Assembly: GCA_027307335.1 (NCBI GenBank)
Contig: DAHUXD010000061.1
Location: 1-58,177 of the forward strand
Origin: Acidobacteriota bacterium
GTDB taxonomy: Bacteria > Acidobacteriota > Thermoanaerobaculia > UBA5066 > Gp7-AA6
DNA length: 58,177 nucleotides
Reading direction: 5' to 3'
Below, piece by piece: positions 15,317 through 43,350 of the stretch; within the stretch, counting starts at the first letter, position 1; every line of letters starts with the position of its first letter. A program made the translations under genes and the position numbers. Below the pieces are notes generated by a model that saw only the letters and a program-made list of their open reading frames with translations, searched no databases and was not told the DNA's origin.

Positions 15317-15360
15317 AGCCTAAGCCCGGAGGCCGGCCGGCTCGTAATGAATTCGCATCA
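15317..15360 (-). promoter_or_regulatory. Dyad operator TGATGC-GAAT-TCATTA with -10 TAGGCT, upstream of the Rieske operon
   Basis: Read on the minus strand, the 16-bp dyad covers 15360-15345. A -10-like TAGGCT lies at 15322-15317, 22 nt downstream, the same spacing as at the other copies in the window. The dyad centre would fall near -42, the class II activator position. Confidence 0.55.
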
Positions 15361-16623: not shown

Positions 16624-17144
16624 CCTGGGCCGTCTGGCTGACCGGGCCGCCGGCCTCGGGGAAGTCGACGGTGGCGCGCGCTCTCTCGGACGCTCTCCGG
16701 AGACGGGGCGTCCGCGCGGTCGTCCTCGAGTCGGATGCGCTCCGGGCGATCCTGACGCCCGGCGCGACGTACGAGCCTTCGGAGCGAGACCGGTTCTACG
16801 CCGAGGTCGCGGATCTCGCGGCGCTCCTCGTGCGGCAGGGAGTTCCCGTGATCGTCGATGCGACCGCGCCGCGCCGCGCGCACCGGGAGCGTCTGAGAAA
16901 CGCGGTCCGCGATTTCCTCGAGGCGCTCGTTGCGACGCCGCGCGAGATTTGCGAGCGGCGGGATCCCAAGGGCCTCTACGCGCGGGCGCGCGGGGGAGAC
17001 GCGCCGCATCTTCCGGGCGCGACCGAAGCCTACGAGGCGCCGGAGAAGCCCGACGTCGTCGTCTCCGGCACCGCGCCGCCCGAGGAGAGCGCGCGGACGA
17101 TTCTCCGAGCGCTCGAAGCGCGCGTTGCTTTCGCCGCAAATTGA
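16620..17144 (+). CDS. CysC-like P-loop kinase (adenylylsulfate kinase family)
   Basis: 174 residues from GTG 16620, overlapping the APH-like gene stop (GTGA). Walker A is LTGPPASGKSTVARAL. ESDALRAILTPGATYEPSERDRFY and PVIVDATAPRRAHRE follow the pattern of APS kinases ('DGDNVR...GF...DR'), as does ICERRDPKGLYARARGG. It may phosphorylate adenylylsulfate, but no sulfate-assimilation genes are nearby and the pairing with an APH-like kinase points to another small-molecule phosphorylation. The stop codon overlaps a dyad operator for the following Hsp20 gene. Confidence 0.78.
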   Translation: MTWAVWLTGPPASGKSTVARALSDALRRRGVRAVVLESDALRAILTPGATYEPSERDRFYAEVADLAALLVRQGVPVIVDATAPRRAHRERLRNAVRDFLEALVATPREICERRDPKGLYARARGGDAPHLPGATEAYEAPEKPDVVVSGTAPPEESARTILRALEARVAFAAN

Positions 17145-17185
17145 TGCGGCTGGGTCATGACCCGCGCCCCGTTCGGGAGCATGCT
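17142..17185 (+). promoter_or_regulatory. Dyad operator TGATGC-GGCT-GGGTCA with -10 CATGCT, upstream of Hsp20
   Basis: The dyad spans 17142-17157 and starts in the stop codon of the upstream kinase gene. CATGCT at 17180-17185 lies 22 nt downstream, in register with the other copies. A separate palindrome GGGTCATGACCC (17152-17163) overlaps its right half, and a hairpin GTCCGG/CCGGAC (17192-17210) lies in the leader just before the ribosome site. Confidence 0.5.
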
Positions 17186-19332: not shown

Positions 19333-22137
19333 CTATCGGTACACGAAGAGCGAGGCATAGAGCATGAGGACGATCAGCAGCAGCCCGATTCCCAGAGCCG
19401 TGAAGCCGAATCTCTTCCACTTCCGGCTGGCGGCGGGAAGGGGCGCCGGCATGATCAGCGTCTCGAGCTTCCCGCTCTCGACGAGCTCGCGGTACTCGCG
19501 CGGACGATCCTTCTTCAGCTCGTCGATCGGAACGCCGGTCGTGAAGATGACCGTGTCGATGGGGAACTTCTCGGGACGGAAGTGCGTGTTGAAGAAGTGG
19601 ATGCTGAAGATGAAACAGACCGCGAGCAGCGCCTCGTCGCTGTGGATCGTCGTGGCGACGTTCACGGCCCAGCCGGGAAGCACGCGCGTGAACACCGTCG
19701 GGAACCACAGGATCAGTCCCGTCATGCCGATCACCGCGACTCCCCAGAACACGGCGAAGTAGTCGAACTTCTCCCAGTAGGTCCAGCGCCCGTAGTCGGG
19801 CCGAGGTCCCTTCTTGAGGAACCACTTGATGGAGCCGAGGAACTCCCGCCAGTCCCGGGCGTTGAGCATCATGCTGTCGCGGCCGAAGACGTACCGGAGC
19901 CACGACTTGCCGCTCGCCCGACGTTGCCGGTAGACGTCGACCAGGTGCAGGACGAAGTACGTGAACGTGGCGATCGCGCAGAGGCGATGGATGACGCCGG
20001 CCGACTCGAAGCCGCCGAAGGCGTGCGAGAGGACCTTCGCCCAGGGCGCGTAGGAGAACTTCAGCAGCATCCCCGTCAGCGCGAGGCCGAGGAAGCTGCC
20101 GATCACGGTCAGATGGAGGTTGCGCTGGTACGTCGTGAAGCGGCGGACGTAGACCGCGCCGTTTCCGGCGGCCGCGTGAGCGGGCCGGCGCTCGGACCAG
20201 GACCGGCGCAGCCAGAGCGCGGTGTGGGCGCCGGCGACCGTCAGCGTGCCGACGAGAAGGGTCGTCATCCCCCAGAACGTGTAGAAGAGGAAGGGATAGC
20301 GCTTCGGGTCGTGGTGCGTGGCGTGGGTCAGGTACCCCGCGAACTGACGGTGCGAGCCGGCGTGGCACTTCGCGCACGTCTGCACGATGTTCGCGTGGGA
20401 CAGGCGCGACCGCGGATCGGTCACCGGCAGGATGTCGTGGGCGCCGTGGCAGTCGTAGCACTTCGCCGTCGTCAGGTAGCCGAGCTTGGAGACTTTGCCG
20501 TGGAACGTGTCGAAGTAGGTCTCGGCGATCTTCTCGTGACAGTGCCCGCACTGGTCCATGATGTGGAGCCGGAAATTCGAGAGGTCCGTCCGCTGGATGC
20601 TGTGGGCCGAATGACAGTCGCTGCAGACCGGCAGCTTCTTGTCCGTCTTCGTCACCAAAGTCGAGTGGACGCTGGCCGTATACATCTCGTAGATGCCCCG
20701 GTGGCACTTGGAGCACGTCTTCGCGACGTTGGCCGGGTTGACCGAGGAGCGCGGATCGCTGGCGGGCAGCTCGCGGTGGGCCGTGTGGCAGTCGGCGCAG
20801 TTGGCGGTGACAGTCAGGCCCGACTGCATCAGCCCCTTGCCGTGAATGCTCTCGAGGTAGTTCTCGACGATGTGCTGCTGCGCGCCCTTGTACCGGATCG
20901 CGGCCTTCTCACCGGCGCGATGGCACCGACCGCAGAGAGCCGGCACGTTGCGCGAGAACGTGGGGGAGCTCGAGTCGTTGTGCGAAAGAGTGCCGTGCGG
21001 GCTGTGGCAGTCGTGGCATTCGGGCGCGTCGGGGCTGCCCTGGGCGAAGAGCTGGCCGTGCTTGCTCTCGCGGTACTGCTCGACCGTCTCGGCATGGCAG
21101 ATGGAGCAGTCGACGCGCGCGCTCATCGTCTTGCACGGGCGAGTGCCGTCCGCCGGATCGCCGCCGGTGTGACACTGGATGCAGGCGATCCTGGCGTGCC
21201 GCGACTTCGAGAGCTGCTCCTTGTCGGCGAAGAGGGAGACATTCTCGGCACCACGCACGGCCCGGAAGTCCGACTTGCCGTGGCAGCGCAGGCAATCCTG
21301 ATCGGCCATGCCCTGCGAGTAAAAGACCTTGCGTACCTTGTGGGGAGAGTGACAGTCCACGCAGGCCGGGATCGCGTGCGGGGACTTCTCCCAGAGCTCG
21401 CCGCGGATGACCTTCCGGTGCACGGTCTCGATCTGCGCATGGCAGCGGGTGCACGTCCTCGAGATGTTTTCCTTGGCGATCGAGGAACGGGGATCGGTGT
21501 GGGGGAGGACGAAGTGGGCCGTGTGGCAGCTCGTGCAGACGGCCGTCACGGTCAGACCCTTCTTGTAGAGGCCCTCGCCGTGGATCGAGTCCATGTAGTT
21601 GCCGAGGATGTTGGTCTCGGGGATCTGCCGGGTCAGGCTGACCGAGGTTCCCTCCTGATGGCAGCGGCCGCACAGCCTCGGCACCTCGATCGTCGACGTC
21701 CGCGAACCGGTGGCGCTCGGGCGGGTGATGTCGTGCGTGCCGTGGCAGCTCTTGCACCCCGGCGCCTCGCGGTCGCCGGCCGCGGCCCGGCGGCCGTGGA
21801 CGCTCGCCGCGAACTGCTTCGCCTCCTCCGAGTGGCAGCCGCCGCAGTCGACCGCGCCGAGCTTCTCCGGGTGGGGGACCTCCTTGATGTCGGCATGGCA
21901 GGACGTGCAGTCGAGGCCGGAGTGGGGGGACGCCTTGAGGGCCGCGGCGTTGTACGGGGGCGCCTCGCCCGCCTTTCGACGGCCCGTCTGCGGGCCGGCC
22001 TCATGACAGGCGGCGCAGTCCTCGTTCCGGGGTGCCGCCGCCTCCGCGGCCGGTTTCGGCGCCGCGTCCTGCGCCCACACCGCGAGCGCGAGGGCGAGAG
22101 AGGACGCCCCCAGCAGGGCGGCGCGGCGAAGCCTCAC
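19333..22137 (-). CDS. 19-heme cytochrome c fused to a diheme cytochrome b domain (CbcL-like)
   Basis: 934 residues from GTG 22137, which overlaps the stop of the upstream fusion gene. A signal peptide (to about residue 22) precedes a periplasmic region with 19 CXXCH motifs (first CAACH, last CAKCH at about residue 596). The C-terminal third (about 615-930) has several membrane helices with His residues, in the style of the FdnI/HydC cytochrome b family: HTALWLRRSW, HLTVIGSFLGLALTG, HRLCAIATFTYFVLHLVD and HSDEALLAVCFIFSIHFFNTH. The layout matches Geobacter CbcL, an inner-membrane quinol oxidase for metal reduction, but with about twice its hemes. Confidence 0.87.
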   Translation of the reverse strand: MRLRRAALLGASSLALALAVWAQDAAPKPAAEAAAPRNEDCAACHEAGPQTGRRKAGEAPPYNAAALKASPHSGLDCTSCHADIKEVPHPEKLGAVDCGGCHSEEAKQFAASVHGRRAAAGDREAPGCKSCHGTHDITRPSATGSRTSTIEVPRLCGRCHQEGTSVSLTRQIPETNILGNYMDSIHGEGLYKKGLTVTAVCTSCHTAHFVLPHTDPRSSIAKENISRTCTRCHAQIETVHRKVIRGELWEKSPHAIPACVDCHSPHKVRKVFYSQGMADQDCLRCHGKSDFRAVRGAENVSLFADKEQLSKSRHARIACIQCHTGGDPADGTRPCKTMSARVDCSICHAETVEQYRESKHGQLFAQGSPDAPECHDCHSPHGTLSHNDSSSPTFSRNVPALCGRCHRAGEKAAIRYKGAQQHIVENYLESIHGKGLMQSGLTVTANCADCHTAHRELPASDPRSSVNPANVAKTCSKCHRGIYEMYTASVHSTLVTKTDKKLPVCSDCHSAHSIQRTDLSNFRLHIMDQCGHCHEKIAETYFDTFHGKVSKLGYLTTAKCYDCHGAHDILPVTDPRSRLSHANIVQTCAKCHAGSHRQFAGYLTHATHHDPKRYPFLFYTFWGMTTLLVGTLTVAGAHTALWLRRSWSERRPAHAAAGNGAVYVRRFTTYQRNLHLTVIGSFLGLALTGMLLKFSYAPWAKVLSHAFGGFESAGVIHRLCAIATFTYFVLHLVDVYRQRRASGKSWLRYVFGRDSMMLNARDWREFLGSIKWFLKKGPRPDYGRWTYWEKFDYFAVFWGVAVIGMTGLILWFPTVFTRVLPGWAVNVATTIHSDEALLAVCFIFSIHFFNTHFRPEKFPIDTVIFTTGVPIDELKKDRPREYRELVESGKLETLIMPAPLPAASRKWKRFGFTALGIGLLLIVLMLYASLFVYR

Positions 22138-24296
22138 GCCGTCTCCGGGGCCTCGCCGCCCGGCTTCTTCTCGTGCAGCAGACGCTCGAGCTCGAGCGGG
22201 TGCTCCTCCTCCATCTCACGCTCGCTGAGCGTGCCCTTCAGCCAGGCCATGTTCATCGGATAGACCTCGGGGTTGAAGATGACGAAGTAGATGTGCCAGA
22301 CGAGGATCGCGAGCGAGGCGAGCCACGCCTCGTAGAAGTGGATCGCGCGGCTGACGTCGTACCCGAGTTTCGTGATGAGACCGATGAACGTGTTGTCGAA
22401 CCACATGCCGAAGCCCGTCGCGGCCATGACGACCGTTCCCCACACGAGGGCCCAGTACTCGGCCTTCTCGACGTAGCTGAAGCGGTCGAACCTCGGGCGC
22501 TCGGCCGACAGCCCGAGGTTGTACCGCACCGCGGTGATCGGGTCGCGCAGGTCGCGGAATCGCCACCACATGTCGCGCAGGAACTGGCGCCCGCGACTCG
22601 TGAAGGCGACGTAGCCGACGTGGTAGAGGCTCGCCGCCACCATGACCATGGCGGAGATCCGGTGGATGATGCTGCGCAGCTCGAAGGTCTTGATCGAGAT
22701 CTTCCGGATGCCGACGACCCACCAGGAACCGGGGTAGCGGAGCATGAACCCCGTGATGACGAGCAGGATGAAGCTCGTCATCAGGGCCCAGTGCTGGATC
22801 CGTTCGATCAGAGTCATCCGGACGTAGACGGCCGTTCCGGCAGGGGGCTCGGGGATCTCGCCGCGGCGGATCTGCATCTGGCGCTTCGACTTCCGGGCGA
22901 AGTCGAGCAGGTTGTGCAGCAGCATGCCGCCGATCACGACGACGATCAGGGCGATGTAGATGGTGCCGATCCAGAAGAGGAGCGGCTGTCCCTGGATCGT
23001 CGCGGCCACGTGGACCTTGCCGGAGGCGAAGCGGGCGTTCGCGCCCGGGTGGCAGCCCTGCGCGCCGCAGGTCTGGGCCAGGTTGGCCGCCGCGATGCGC
23101 GAGGCCGGGTTCGAGGACGGCAGGATGTCGTGGGTGCCGTGGCAGCTCGCGCAGTTGGCGACCTGGACGACTCCCCCCTTGGAGGCGAGCCCGTGGTAGC
23201 TGTCGGCGAACGTCTGCGACCGGTCGGTCGGGAGGTTCCACTTCTCGGTGACGCGCAGCGAGGCATGGCACGGCGTGCAGACGCGGTTCGAGACGTTCGC
23301 GGCCGCGACCGGGGAAAGCGGGTCCTTCGGCGAGAGAATGCGATGCTCACCGTGGCAGTCCGTGCACGCGGGAGCGTCCTTGTTGCCGCGACGCAACGCC
23401 ACCCCGTGGACGCTGCCCTGGAACTGCCGCTCCTCCTTCTCGTGGCACCGCGCGCAGACCTGTTGCACGCGCATCTTGTTGACGGGGGAGGCCGCGTCGA
23501 ATCCGTAGCGCTCGTCGTGCGCGCCGTGGCAGTCGACGCAGTTCGGCGCGCGGGCGTCGCCCCGGGCGAGGGCCTTCCCGTGCACGCTCTCCTCGTAGGA
23601 GGCGATGAAGCTTCGCGTCGGGGTCTCCGCCCTCCGGACGGACGCGTTCTTGACGTGGCAGCCGAGGCAGAGCCGCGCTTGCGCCTTCTTCAGCGCGGCG
23701 GCGTCGGCCATCGCCCCTTCCGTGACTCCCTGGCGATGACAGCTCAGGCAGGTGGGCGTCGGCCGCTCGATCGAATTCGGGACCCTGCCGTGCTCGGACG
23801 CGGCATAGTGGGCCGCGACGCCGTCGTGGCACTTGCCGCAGGCGGCGACGTCTCCGGGGGGCACGAAGCGGAACGAGGCCTTCTTGACCGGGCCGATTTC
23901 GTGCGCGCCGTGGCAGGAGGCGCAGGAGGTTTCGGCCGTTCCCTTGCCGGCGGCCGCGAGGCCGATTCCGGGGTGGAACGGATGCGCGTCGCCGACGGCG
24001 TCGTGGCAGGAGACGCAGGCGACCGGCTTCAACCGTTCCTTGTGCGGGAAGTCCGTCGTCGTCGCGAGGTCCGCGTGGCAGTCGACGCACCCGACGCCGG
24101 CCGCTCCGTGGACCGACCCGGCGAACGCCTTGTCCGAGACGAAGATGGGCCGCCCGTTGGCGCGCTTGGCGCCCGCGTCCCCGTGACAGGTCTGGCAGTC
24201 CTGATTGGTCGGGGGCTTCGGGGCGGGCGGGGCGGCGGACAGGCGGGCGGCGGCGGCGGTCAGAATGGCGGCGGAGAGCAGTTTCGGGAGGCGCAC
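22134..24296 (-). CDS. 13-heme cytochrome c fused to a diheme cytochrome b domain (CbcL-like)
   Basis: 720 residues from GTG 24296. A signal peptide (to about 22) is followed by twelve CXXCH motifs and one CX4CH (CGAQGCH, encoded at 23049-23069). The C-terminal domain has four to five membrane helices with candidate b-heme ligands in RIQHWALMTSFILLVITGF, IIHRISAMVMVAASLYHVG and IHFYEAWLASLAILVWHIYF. The nearest known architecture is CbcL. It is the first gene of a three-gene operon with the 19-heme fusion and the NapC/NirT protein. Two dyad operators lie 154 and 183 nt upstream, with a -10 in register. Confidence 0.87.
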   Translation of the reverse strand: MRLPKLLSAAILTAAAARLSAAPPAPKPPTNQDCQTCHGDAGAKRANGRPIFVSDKAFAGSVHGAAGVGCVDCHADLATTTDFPHKERLKPVACVSCHDAVGDAHPFHPGIGLAAAGKGTAETSCASCHGAHEIGPVKKASFRFVPPGDVAACGKCHDGVAAHYAASEHGRVPNSIERPTPTCLSCHRQGVTEGAMADAAALKKAQARLCLGCHVKNASVRRAETPTRSFIASYEESVHGKALARGDARAPNCVDCHGAHDERYGFDAASPVNKMRVQQVCARCHEKEERQFQGSVHGVALRRGNKDAPACTDCHGEHRILSPKDPLSPVAAANVSNRVCTPCHASLRVTEKWNLPTDRSQTFADSYHGLASKGGVVQVANCASCHGTHDILPSSNPASRIAAANLAQTCGAQGCHPGANARFASGKVHVAATIQGQPLLFWIGTIYIALIVVVIGGMLLHNLLDFARKSKRQMQIRRGEIPEPPAGTAVYVRMTLIERIQHWALMTSFILLVITGFMLRYPGSWWVVGIRKISIKTFELRSIIHRISAMVMVAASLYHVGYVAFTSRGRQFLRDMWWRFRDLRDPITAVRYNLGLSAERPRFDRFSYVEKAEYWALVWGTVVMAATGFGMWFDNTFIGLITKLGYDVSRAIHFYEAWLASLAILVWHIYFVIFNPEVYPMNMAWLKGTLSEREMEEEHPLELERLLHEKKPGGEAPETA

Positions 24297-24421: not shown

Positions 24422-24494
24422 AGGATAGAAAGAGCGGACGGGGCGGGCCTGATTCGTCTGCATCACCCTGAGAGTCAATGATTTGGATGCATCA
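24422..24494 (-). promoter_or_regulatory. Two tandem dyad operators and a -10 TATCCT, promoter of the CbcL-like operon
   Basis: Read on the minus strand, dyad 1 is TGATGC-ATCC-AAATCA (24494-24479) and dyad 2 is TGATGC-AGAC-GAATCA (24465-24450); their centres are 29 bp apart. TATCCT (24427-24422) lies 22 nt past dyad 2. A leader of about 120 nt follows to the GTG at 24296 and contains a GC-rich hairpin region. Confidence 0.6.
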
Positions 24495-24577: not shown

Positions 24578-24859
24578 TTACTTGCCCGGGTAGTCCTTCG
24601 CCCACGCGCCGTCGACCTTGTCGACCTTCTTGACGGCCTTCTGCGCCTGGAGCCACTTCCCGCGGTCGTTCAACTCGTTCTGGCCCTCGCCCTTCTTCGG
24701 CAGCGCCACCGTGTGGCAGAACTGGCAATTCTTGGCGTCGACCCCGGCGGCCTTCGCCTGCTTCTGGATGTCCATGTTCGCGGTGGAGGTCGCGCTGAAG
24801 GCGAGCCATCCGCAGACGACGAGAAGCCCCACCGTGACCACGATCCCCTTCTTCCTCAT
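24578..24859 (-). CDS. Small monoheme c-type cytochrome, paralog 1
   Basis: 93 residues. An N-terminal hydrophobic segment (about 5-25) acts as signal or anchor, and one heme motif CQFCH lies near residue 46. A C-terminal conserved part reads ELNDRGKWL and GAWAKDYPGK. At the two positions where the two sister proteins carry Cys (ELNDCGKWL and AKDCPKK), this copy has Arg and Tyr. I do not recognise the family beyond 'small monoheme cytochrome'; the likely role is periplasmic electron shuttling for the adjacent respiratory complexes. A strong GAGGAGG ribosome site, an own dyad promoter and an own terminator make it an independent unit. Confidence 0.85.
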   Translation of the reverse strand: MRKKGIVVTVGLLVVCGWLAFSATSTANMDIQKQAKAAGVDAKNCQFCHTVALPKKGEGQNELNDRGKWLQAQKAVKKVDKVDGAWAKDYPGK

Positions 24860-24904: not shown

Positions 24905-24947
24905 AGGATAGCCGGATTGCGGGGAGGGGAGTAGTGCGATTGCATCA
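24905..24947 (-). promoter_or_regulatory. Dyad operator TGATGC-AATC-GCACTA with -10 TATCCT, monoheme cytochrome 1
   Basis: The dyad occupies 24947-24932 on the minus strand. TATCCT is at 24910-24905, 21 nt downstream. The dyad begins 73 bp upstream of the ATG, exactly the distance seen at paralog 2, although the sequence between dyad and gene is otherwise different. Confidence 0.6.
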
Positions 24948-25353: not shown

Positions 25354-25397
25354 ACGATAAGGAAGCGCCCGGGGACGCGAATGGTGCGACTGCATCA
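25354..25397 (-). promoter_or_regulatory. Dyad operator TGATGC-AGTC-GCACCA with -10 TATCGT, monoheme cytochrome 2
   Basis: The dyad spans 25397-25382 on the minus strand, and a TATCGT (25359-25354) follows 22 nt downstream. The dyad starts 73 bp from the ATG, as in paralog 1. Confidence 0.58.
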
Positions 25398-31950: not shown

Positions 31951-31995
31951 GATTTAGCAGTCCGTCGGCGCGGACAGCGTGATGCAGTCGCATCA
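31951..31995 (-). promoter_or_regulatory. Perfect dyad operator TGATGC-GACT-GCATCA with -10 CTAAAT/TAAATC, USP gene
   Basis: The dyad (31995-31980) is a perfect 6-4-6 palindrome, the best copy in the window. A -10-like hexamer lies at 31957-31952 (or one base later), with TG two bases before it in extended -10 style. Confidence 0.62.
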
Positions 31996-42347: not shown

Positions 42348-43139
42348 CTAGCGGCGCGCTCGCACCGGCGCGGCGGTCTTCTTCGGAGCCGGAGGCTTGC
42401 GGGACTTCGCCGTCTCCCGCGAGGTTCCTCCGGAGCCGGAGAGCCTCGAGAGCGACGGCAGCTCGCGCATGTCGGAATTGACGAGGCCGTTCTGGTACGC
42501 GAAGGCGACGGCCGCGAGTTTCGTGTGCACGTCGAGCTTCGACAGAATCTTCGCGATGTGGTTACGCACGGTCACGGGCGAGATGAAGAGGTCCTCCGCG
42601 ATCCCGTCGGTCGTCAGCCCCTGGGCCATCTTGCGGAGGATCTCCTGCTCGCGCGACGTTAAGGACGCGAGCGTGCCCGCGGGGCCGCGGCCGGGCTTCG
42701 GCGCCGGGCCCTCCTCGACCGCCTCGGCGAGCTCGTTCTCGAGCGGCGAGGCCTGCGCCTCCGGGTCGCGGAGCACGTGCACGATCGTGGCGAGCGAGGG
42801 ATGGCCGCCCGAGATCGCGAACGGAGTCGCGCACAGGCGACGCGTCCCGCCTCCGGGCATCGGGTAGTCGATGAGGAACGCGTGGAGCTCGTCGTCCGGG
42901 TGCCGGCGCGCCTGCGTCGTCACCGGGCACGAGGCGCCGCAGTAGCGATTGCCGTACACGTCGCGGCCGCACATCACGTCGTAGCAGCGGCGGCCGAGGA
43001 CCTGATACGCGGGACGGCCGAGCAGGCGCTCGCACGCCTTGTTCCACAGGATGATCAGGTCGTTGCCGTCGAGCGCGAAGACGGCTTCGCCGCTCTTGGC
43101 GATCTTCTCCAGGACTTCGACCGGCTGAGACATTTGCAT
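42348..43139 (-). CDS. PAS-LuxR transcriptional regulator with four-cysteine PAS cluster
   Basis: 263 residues from ATG 43139. The PAS domain (about 5-125) starts VLEKIAKSGEAVFALDGNDLIILWNKACERLLGR and contains RCYDVMCGRDVYGNRYCGASC, a C-x4-C-x9-C-x3-C cluster. A linker rich in Glu and Pro leads to a GerE/LuxR helix-turn-helix (about 178-240), with LTSREQEILRKMAQGLTTDGIAEDL and SPVTVRNHIAKILSKL as recognition helix. The Cys cluster resembles the [4Fe-4S]-binding PAS of the oxygen sensor NreB (C-x2-C-x11-C-x2-C), here fused directly to the output domain. No receiver domain is present. A start further upstream (43322) is open in frame but gives low-complexity sequence unlike a domain. Confidence 0.85.
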   Translation of the reverse strand: MQMSQPVEVLEKIAKSGEAVFALDGNDLIILWNKACERLLGRPAYQVLGRRCYDVMCGRDVYGNRYCGASCPVTTQARRHPDDELHAFLIDYPMPGGGTRRLCATPFAISGGHPSLATIVHVLRDPEAQASPLENELAEAVEEGPAPKPGRGPAGTLASLTSREQEILRKMAQGLTTDGIAEDLFISPVTVRNHIAKILSKLDVHTKLAAVAFAYQNGLVNSDMRELPSLSRLSGSGGTSRETAKSRKPPAPKKTAAPVRARR

Positions 43140-43141
43140 CA
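43126..43141 (-). promoter_or_regulatory. Dyad TGATGC-AAAT-GTCTCA over the start codon of the PAS-LuxR gene
   Basis: On the minus strand the dyad (43141-43126) contains the ATG of the gene. No -10 lies at the usual distance downstream. A GATACC just upstream could be a -10 that places transcription start at the ATG, so binding here would block rather than activate. Confidence 0.42.
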
Positions 43142-43305
43142 GTATGGTATCTCGTTTCGGAAGGGCGGTTTTCCGTCGTTCCGGTCCGACGAAGCCGGCC
43201 GCGATCGGGGGCCCCGCGGCGGCCCCAACCCCCGTCGGCTGAGGGCCCTGCGCGAGGGCGAGGAGAATCCGCGGACCCGCGACGGCCTGACCGCTTCGCT
43301 CCCCA

Positions 43306-43321
43306 TGAGTCGTTTGCATCA
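43306..43321 (-). promoter_or_regulatory. Second dyad TGATGC-AAAC-GACTCA upstream of the PAS-LuxR gene
   Basis: The minus-strand dyad (43321-43306) lies 167 bp upstream of the preferred ATG, in the gap to the SDR gene. It resembles the copy at 43126 more than the others (AAAY spacer, CTCA end). No -10 is seen in register. Confidence 0.42.
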
Positions 43322-43350
43322 TGAGGGCCGCACCCGTTTCGACCGCAAGG

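Follow-up and report, generated by a model that had tools for sequence, protein, structure and literature searches.

A one-component PAS-LuxR regulator with a conserved cysteine loop as candidate binder of the TGATGC-N4-GCATCA box in an Acidobacteriota bacterium

We examined a stretch of 58,177 nucleotides from an Acidobacteriota bacterium (the window), which carries on its minus strand a gene for a PAS-LuxR one-component regulator (42348..43139). The longest frame of this gene runs from 42348 to 43322 and comprises 324 codons. Because close homologues begin to align at about residue 62 of this frame, translation most likely begins at the ATG-CAA-ATG of 43139 or 43133 and not at 43321, and residues of the core are numbered here from the ATG at 43133. 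Domain profile searches found a PAS domain (PF00989, E 1.1e-5; 42759..43106, minus strand) followed by a GerE/LuxR-type helix-turn-helix (HTH; PF00196, E 1.4e-17; 42483..42671, minus strand), and nothing beyond these two; PF00989 or PF13426 matches the PAS domain in 13/13 family members scanned. The fusion of PAS directly to GerE, with neither kinase nor receiver, is therefore as the original prediction had described it. The protein has no Crp-type HTH or cNMP-binding fold and no histidine kinase output of the NreB type. It also lacks the LOV flavin motif GxNCRFLQ: by eye, its loop GRRCYDVMCG resembles that motif in the position of the cysteine alone. The architecture is best explained by a cytoplasmic one-component protein that holds sensor and output in a single chain. 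An AlphaFold2 model of the core, built from the single sequence, reached a mean pLDDT of 46, and about 35 in the PAS domain.

The PAS domain contains a cysteine loop, C50-x4-C55-x9-C65-x3-C69 (42927..42986, minus strand), whose C-x4-C-x9-C-x3-C motif reads RCYDVMCGRDVYGNRYCGASC, as claimed beforehand. We surveyed these cysteines in 78 rows, made up of 77 relatives sampled over the phylum and the query itself. The first cysteine (C50) is kept in 73/78 rows, the third (C65) in 78/78 and the fourth (C69) in 77/78, whereas the second (C55) is common to 12/78 only. When a fourth cysteine is present, it lies mainly at one of three positions within the same loop, giving C-x4-C-x9-C-x3-C in 9 loci, C-x6-C-x7-C-x3-C in 11 and C-x9-C-x3-C-x3-C in 10, while 30 loci have C-x14-C-x3-C alone. 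In addition, H119 of the PAS domain (IVHVL; 42777..42779, minus strand), a candidate fourth ligand, shows no variation in either alignment of selected members (A1 and A2). The NreB-like set of four cysteines that had been proposed is thus not supported as it stood: three of its members are conserved, joined by an invariant histidine, but the second is not. A classical four-cysteine cluster is not required, because 30 relatives have only three cysteines; the recurrence of the fourth at three loop positions, together with the invariant histidine, suggests residues that ligate one centre instead of simply pairing in a disulfide. From this pattern of conservation it is reasonable to infer a site for a metal or a cluster, in which three cysteines are fixed and the fourth ligand is variable or a histidine. 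The NreB-like label is an analogy, and the spacing in NreB, C-x2-C-x11-C-x2-C, differs from that of the window protein.

The window also contains a series of inverted repeats of the form TGATGC-N4-GCATCA (the box). One perfect box, TGATGC-AGTC-GCATCA (31980..31995), lies 37 bp from the start of a Usp gene; a co-oriented gene for an ADP-forming acyl-CoA ligase has its 3' end about 44 bp before the box. Boxes with one mismatch are found at 24450..24465, upstream of a multihaem cytochrome/cytochrome b561 gene (22134-24296, minus strand), and at 25382..25397, about 520 bp upstream of a small cytochrome gene (24578-24859, minus strand). Box-like sites with two mismatches occur at 24479, beside the 24450..24465 box, at 24932..24947, where the small cytochrome gene starts 73 bp away, at 17142..17157, 65 bp upstream of Hsp20, and at 15345..15360, 43 bp from the start of a Rieske/cytochrome b operon. 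The last of these falls in the gap that separates the Rieske/cytochrome b genes from a divergent gene for an APH-family phosphotransferase, about 40 bp from each. Between 17142 and 35847, Usp, Hsp20, the ADP-forming acyl-CoA ligase and PfkB fall within 20 kb, beside multihaem cytochromes, forming a DosR-like set in which PfkB is without a box of its own. At the regulator gene itself, a degenerate box, TGATGCAAATGTCTCA (43126..43141, minus strand; 2/12 mismatches, PWM 17.9), covers the likely start codon, and another, TGATGCAAACGACTCA (43306..43321, minus strand; 2/12 mismatches), lies about 170 bp upstream of the start. By the density of such sites in the window, two of them at this gene have a chance of about 0.001, with the ATG itself being part of the 43126 match. 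The two dyads predicted for the start region are therefore both there, one of them over the likely start codon, but each is weak.

Across the genome, the box behaves as a regulon signal. Allowing at most one mismatch (two-mismatch sites were surveyed in the window), we counted 39 sites against 7 for a reversed-pattern control, and when exact TGATGC...GCATCA pairs were collected at spacers of 0 to 14 bp, 11/14 had the 4-bp spacer (p 3e-11). Among the loci fetched, 25/35 sites are intergenic (17% expected) and 18/35 lie within about 120 bp of a gene start (7% expected). The consensus is TGATGC-R-N-N-Y-GCATCA, with A+T-rich spacers. These results bear out the earlier proposal of a genuine 6-4-6 box. 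In 8/34 sites a TANNNT hexamer stands 19-23 bp after the box, compared to about 0.9 expected, for an offset that was picked post hoc. At many targets this hexamer comes about 21-23 bp behind the box and would place the centre of the box near -42 from the predicted start, a class II activator position, which suggests activation. In one other genome (G020; C21, C66, C91), three exact boxes share the identical spacer CCCC and are probably copies of a repeat and not regulatory sites.

The genes behind the boxes belong largely to energy metabolism. In the genome of the window, boxes precede genes for PFOR/NifJ, a 2-oxoacid:acceptor oxidoreductase, HypF, malate dehydrogenase and fumarase C, and also stand at cytochrome c assembly (Ccm) genes; one more box is about 420 bp away from a gene for hemerythrin. 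Several of these targets recur elsewhere, with boxes at PFOR in G013, at 2-oxoacid oxidoreductase in G017, at Ccm in G015 and, for enoyl-CoA hydratase, in both the own genome and G006. Genomes of genus g8 carry a box at an MtrC-like multihaem cytochrome, and in G007 a COX1-family oxidase subunit, cbb3-like by eye, lies 429 bp from a box. Judged by the known families among them, the targets would form a low-oxygen regulon of electron transfer and energy metabolism that resembles the DosR gene set, in agreement with the anaerobic and energy-metabolism functions expected at the outset.

Next to these targets, the box is found at genes of the regulator family itself. Orthologues of the window protein in four species of genus g8 have a one-mismatch box, TGGTGC[A/G]TTCGCATCA, at the regulator's own promoter, and an orthologue from another family (G023) has a one-mismatch box, TGATTCATCCGCATCA, at the same place. 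The PWM scores of these own-promoter sites are 23-25, compared to about 5 or less in the class's other family members, and the chance of such boxes is about 1e-5. An inverted repeat at the own promoter is thus kept among the orthologues of g8 and G023; it is absent from g5 orthologues and from group B regulators (g4 and G015), though their genomes carry the box. Autoregulation, originally suggested (as negative) from the two dyads in the window, gains its best support from these orthologues. In the own genome, which encodes nine GerE proteins, a start-region box was seen at two only, both PAS-LuxR proteins of the family, in a scan in which two loci (L156 and L157) gave no usable frame. Two further PAS-LuxR paralogues are encoded there, L019 (G000:C28:62912-63766) and L020 (G000:C13:24419-25162), of which L020 alone has a box over the start codon. 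A DECG branch of PAS-LuxR genes from further classes of the phylum (L189, L192, L195, L200, L207, L210 and L211) has ACAATAATCANNNCGCATCATTT in common, often followed by TGATG and at an almost constant position upstream of the start; this is possibly an operator of their own with the same half-site.

The distribution of the box also follows that of the family, in comparisons that ignore phylogeny and leave shared ancestry uncorrected. In 12 other genomes of the order with group A or B members, 19/33 exact pairs have the 4-bp spacer (p 2e-13), as opposed to 0/5 in two genomes of the same family that lack the protein (G001 and G002). This correspondence is not complete: G023 has the protein and its own-promoter box but shows no genome-wide enrichment (11/10; 0/6 by spacer), and two f8 genomes without the family show a marginal preference for the 4-bp spacer (G038, 4/20, p 0.06; G056, 3/10, p 0.04). 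Some f8 genomes have more boxes in the raw counts, which was considered as strong counter-evidence and rejected after the spacer control. The link between regulator and box, formerly pure inference, is now supported by the orthologues' own-promoter boxes, by co-occurrence and by the failure of Crp/Fnr proteins to track the box, and on these sequence comparisons the PAS-LuxR family is the best candidate binder of TGATGC-N4-GCATCA, which the window protein most likely recognises. The title of master regulator is partly right; since two PAS-LuxR paralogues of the own genome carry a box at the start, reading or feeding the box may be shared there by more than one member of the family.

We compared the window protein with known systems. 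DosR/DevR of mycobacteria shares a GerE-type output, with DevR matching the HTH profile in a PDB search, and a similar target set of Usp and Hsp20, with PfkB nearby but without a box; it is, however, a two-component protein with no PAS-HTH fusion, and its DNA box differs from TGATGC-N4-GCATCA. FNR/Anr of the Crp family is likewise one-component, with an Fe-S oxygen sensor, for which the window protein is a candidate, an anaerobic regulon and an activator geometry near -42, but differs in fold and half-site spacing, and Crp/Fnr does not track the box here. EL222, a LOV-HTH photoreceptor that the PDB search (8a5r/3p7n) gave as the one-component PAS-LuxR relative, has a PAS-type sensor joined directly to a LuxR/GerE HTH in the same N- to C-terminal order; unlike the window protein, it senses light through a flavin, lacks the cysteine triad loop and serves an unrelated regulon. 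In staphylococcal NreB/NreC, a four-cysteine PAS domain holds an oxygen-labile [4Fe-4S] cluster and a LuxR-type protein, NreC, serves as output for an anaerobic respiration regulon (PMC4601167, PMC8774646), but the system is built of two proteins and a phosphorelay, and its four cysteines are not conserved in the window family. FG214 of Fimbriimonas ginsengisoli is a one-component protein with PAS and LuxR-type HTH and, like the window protein, a redox or oxygen candidate. It dimerises to bind DNA, with haem reduction driving the switch, but its HTH is N-terminal, its haem is bound via histidines and only an artificial DNA target has been reported (PMC13060918). PAS-LuxR fusions are common, with more than 6000 noted (PMC13060918). 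The fusion is thus of a kind already known, and by sequence the cysteine-triad/histidine PAS loop appears to be without a named family: searches of Pfam and NCBIfam gave no named family with this loop, a PDB sequence search gave no relative clearly covering it, and a literature search for a Cys-PAS-LuxR family found no paper. Related loci in genome contigs amounted to four distant partial PAS matches, and viral contigs gave no relatives.

Taken as a whole, the best explanation, to which we assign a probability of about 0.6, is that a Cys/His PAS domain senses oxygen or redox state, gates a GerE dimer on the box and controls a low-oxygen energy regulon. The PAS domain, with its C-x14-C-x3-C triad, its histidine and, in the window protein, a fourth cysteine, would respond to oxygen or to redox state, and a metal or Fe-S centre is the most likely means of doing so. 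By the precedent of LOV and haem PAS proteins, a change at this centre may release or pair the HTH and so control GerE dimerisation, and the dimer would bind TGATGC-N4-GCATCA, consistent with the footprints described above. Acting from about -42 it would activate many targets, and a site that overlaps the start or the core promoter would let it repress its own gene, giving negative autoregulation. The regulon would comprise pyruvate and 2-oxoacid ferredoxin oxidoreductases, HypF, cytochrome c assembly, multihaem cytochromes, fumarase and malate dehydrogenase, as well as the Usp near the ADP-forming acyl-CoA ligase.

The same regulator and box could work with another chemistry, the cysteines serving thiol/disulfide chemistry or structural zinc, in which case the signal would be the redox state of quinones or thiols and not oxygen sensed by an Fe-S cluster. 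With only three cysteines invariant, the fourth position variable or absent and ArcB as a precedent for redox-active PAS cysteines (PMC4601167), we regard this as a possibility at less than even odds; the fourth cysteine at its three alternative loop positions and the invariant histidine speak instead for the ligands of one centre. A PAS-haem sensor is improbable: H119 is invariant and could ligate haem as histidines do in FG214, itself a one-component PAS-HTH protein (PMC13060918), but the invariant cysteine loop would have no role in known haem PAS domains, and the domain order of FG214 is opposite.

Other doubts concern the protein that reads the box. A regulator of Crp/Fnr type or another one-component protein might bind it, with the PAS-LuxR gene merely a target; boxes at the own gene would fit simple target genes equally well, and g4, g5 and G015 genomes carry the box while their regulator promoters do not. 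We consider this unlikely, as Crp/Fnr is absent from the box-bearing G006 and present in the box-lacking G001 and G002, the GerE proteins of the own genome that were scanned have the box only at the two PAS-LuxR members (L156 and L157 unscored), and the 6-4-6 geometry suits GerE dimers. Less likely again is a main role in binding for the contig 13 paralogue L020, which has a box over its start codon, with the window protein secondary. L020 has four cysteines, as does the window protein, and its box scores a PWM of 18.9 against 17.9 at the window gene, but in other genera it is the window protein, not L020, whose orthologues carry the footprints.

A Cys/His PAS sensor acting through GerE would thus take the role that FNR, NreBC or DosSR has elsewhere. 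More tentatively, and at less than even odds, the family may be a widespread class of one-component oxygen sensors in which the cysteine triad, the histidine and a migrating fourth cysteine hold an Fe-S centre and gate the LuxR HTH, making it the order's equivalent of FNR, complete with a 6-4-6 box and an anaerobic regulon of its own. For a switch to anaerobic energy metabolism in this bacterial order, on which the papers searched gave nothing, our analysis puts forward a concrete candidate regulator together with its operator and a list of targets, and it defines a cysteine-PAS family across the phylum whose cofactor is directly testable. If an Fe-S centre is present, the protein would be a one-protein counterpart of NreB-NreC.
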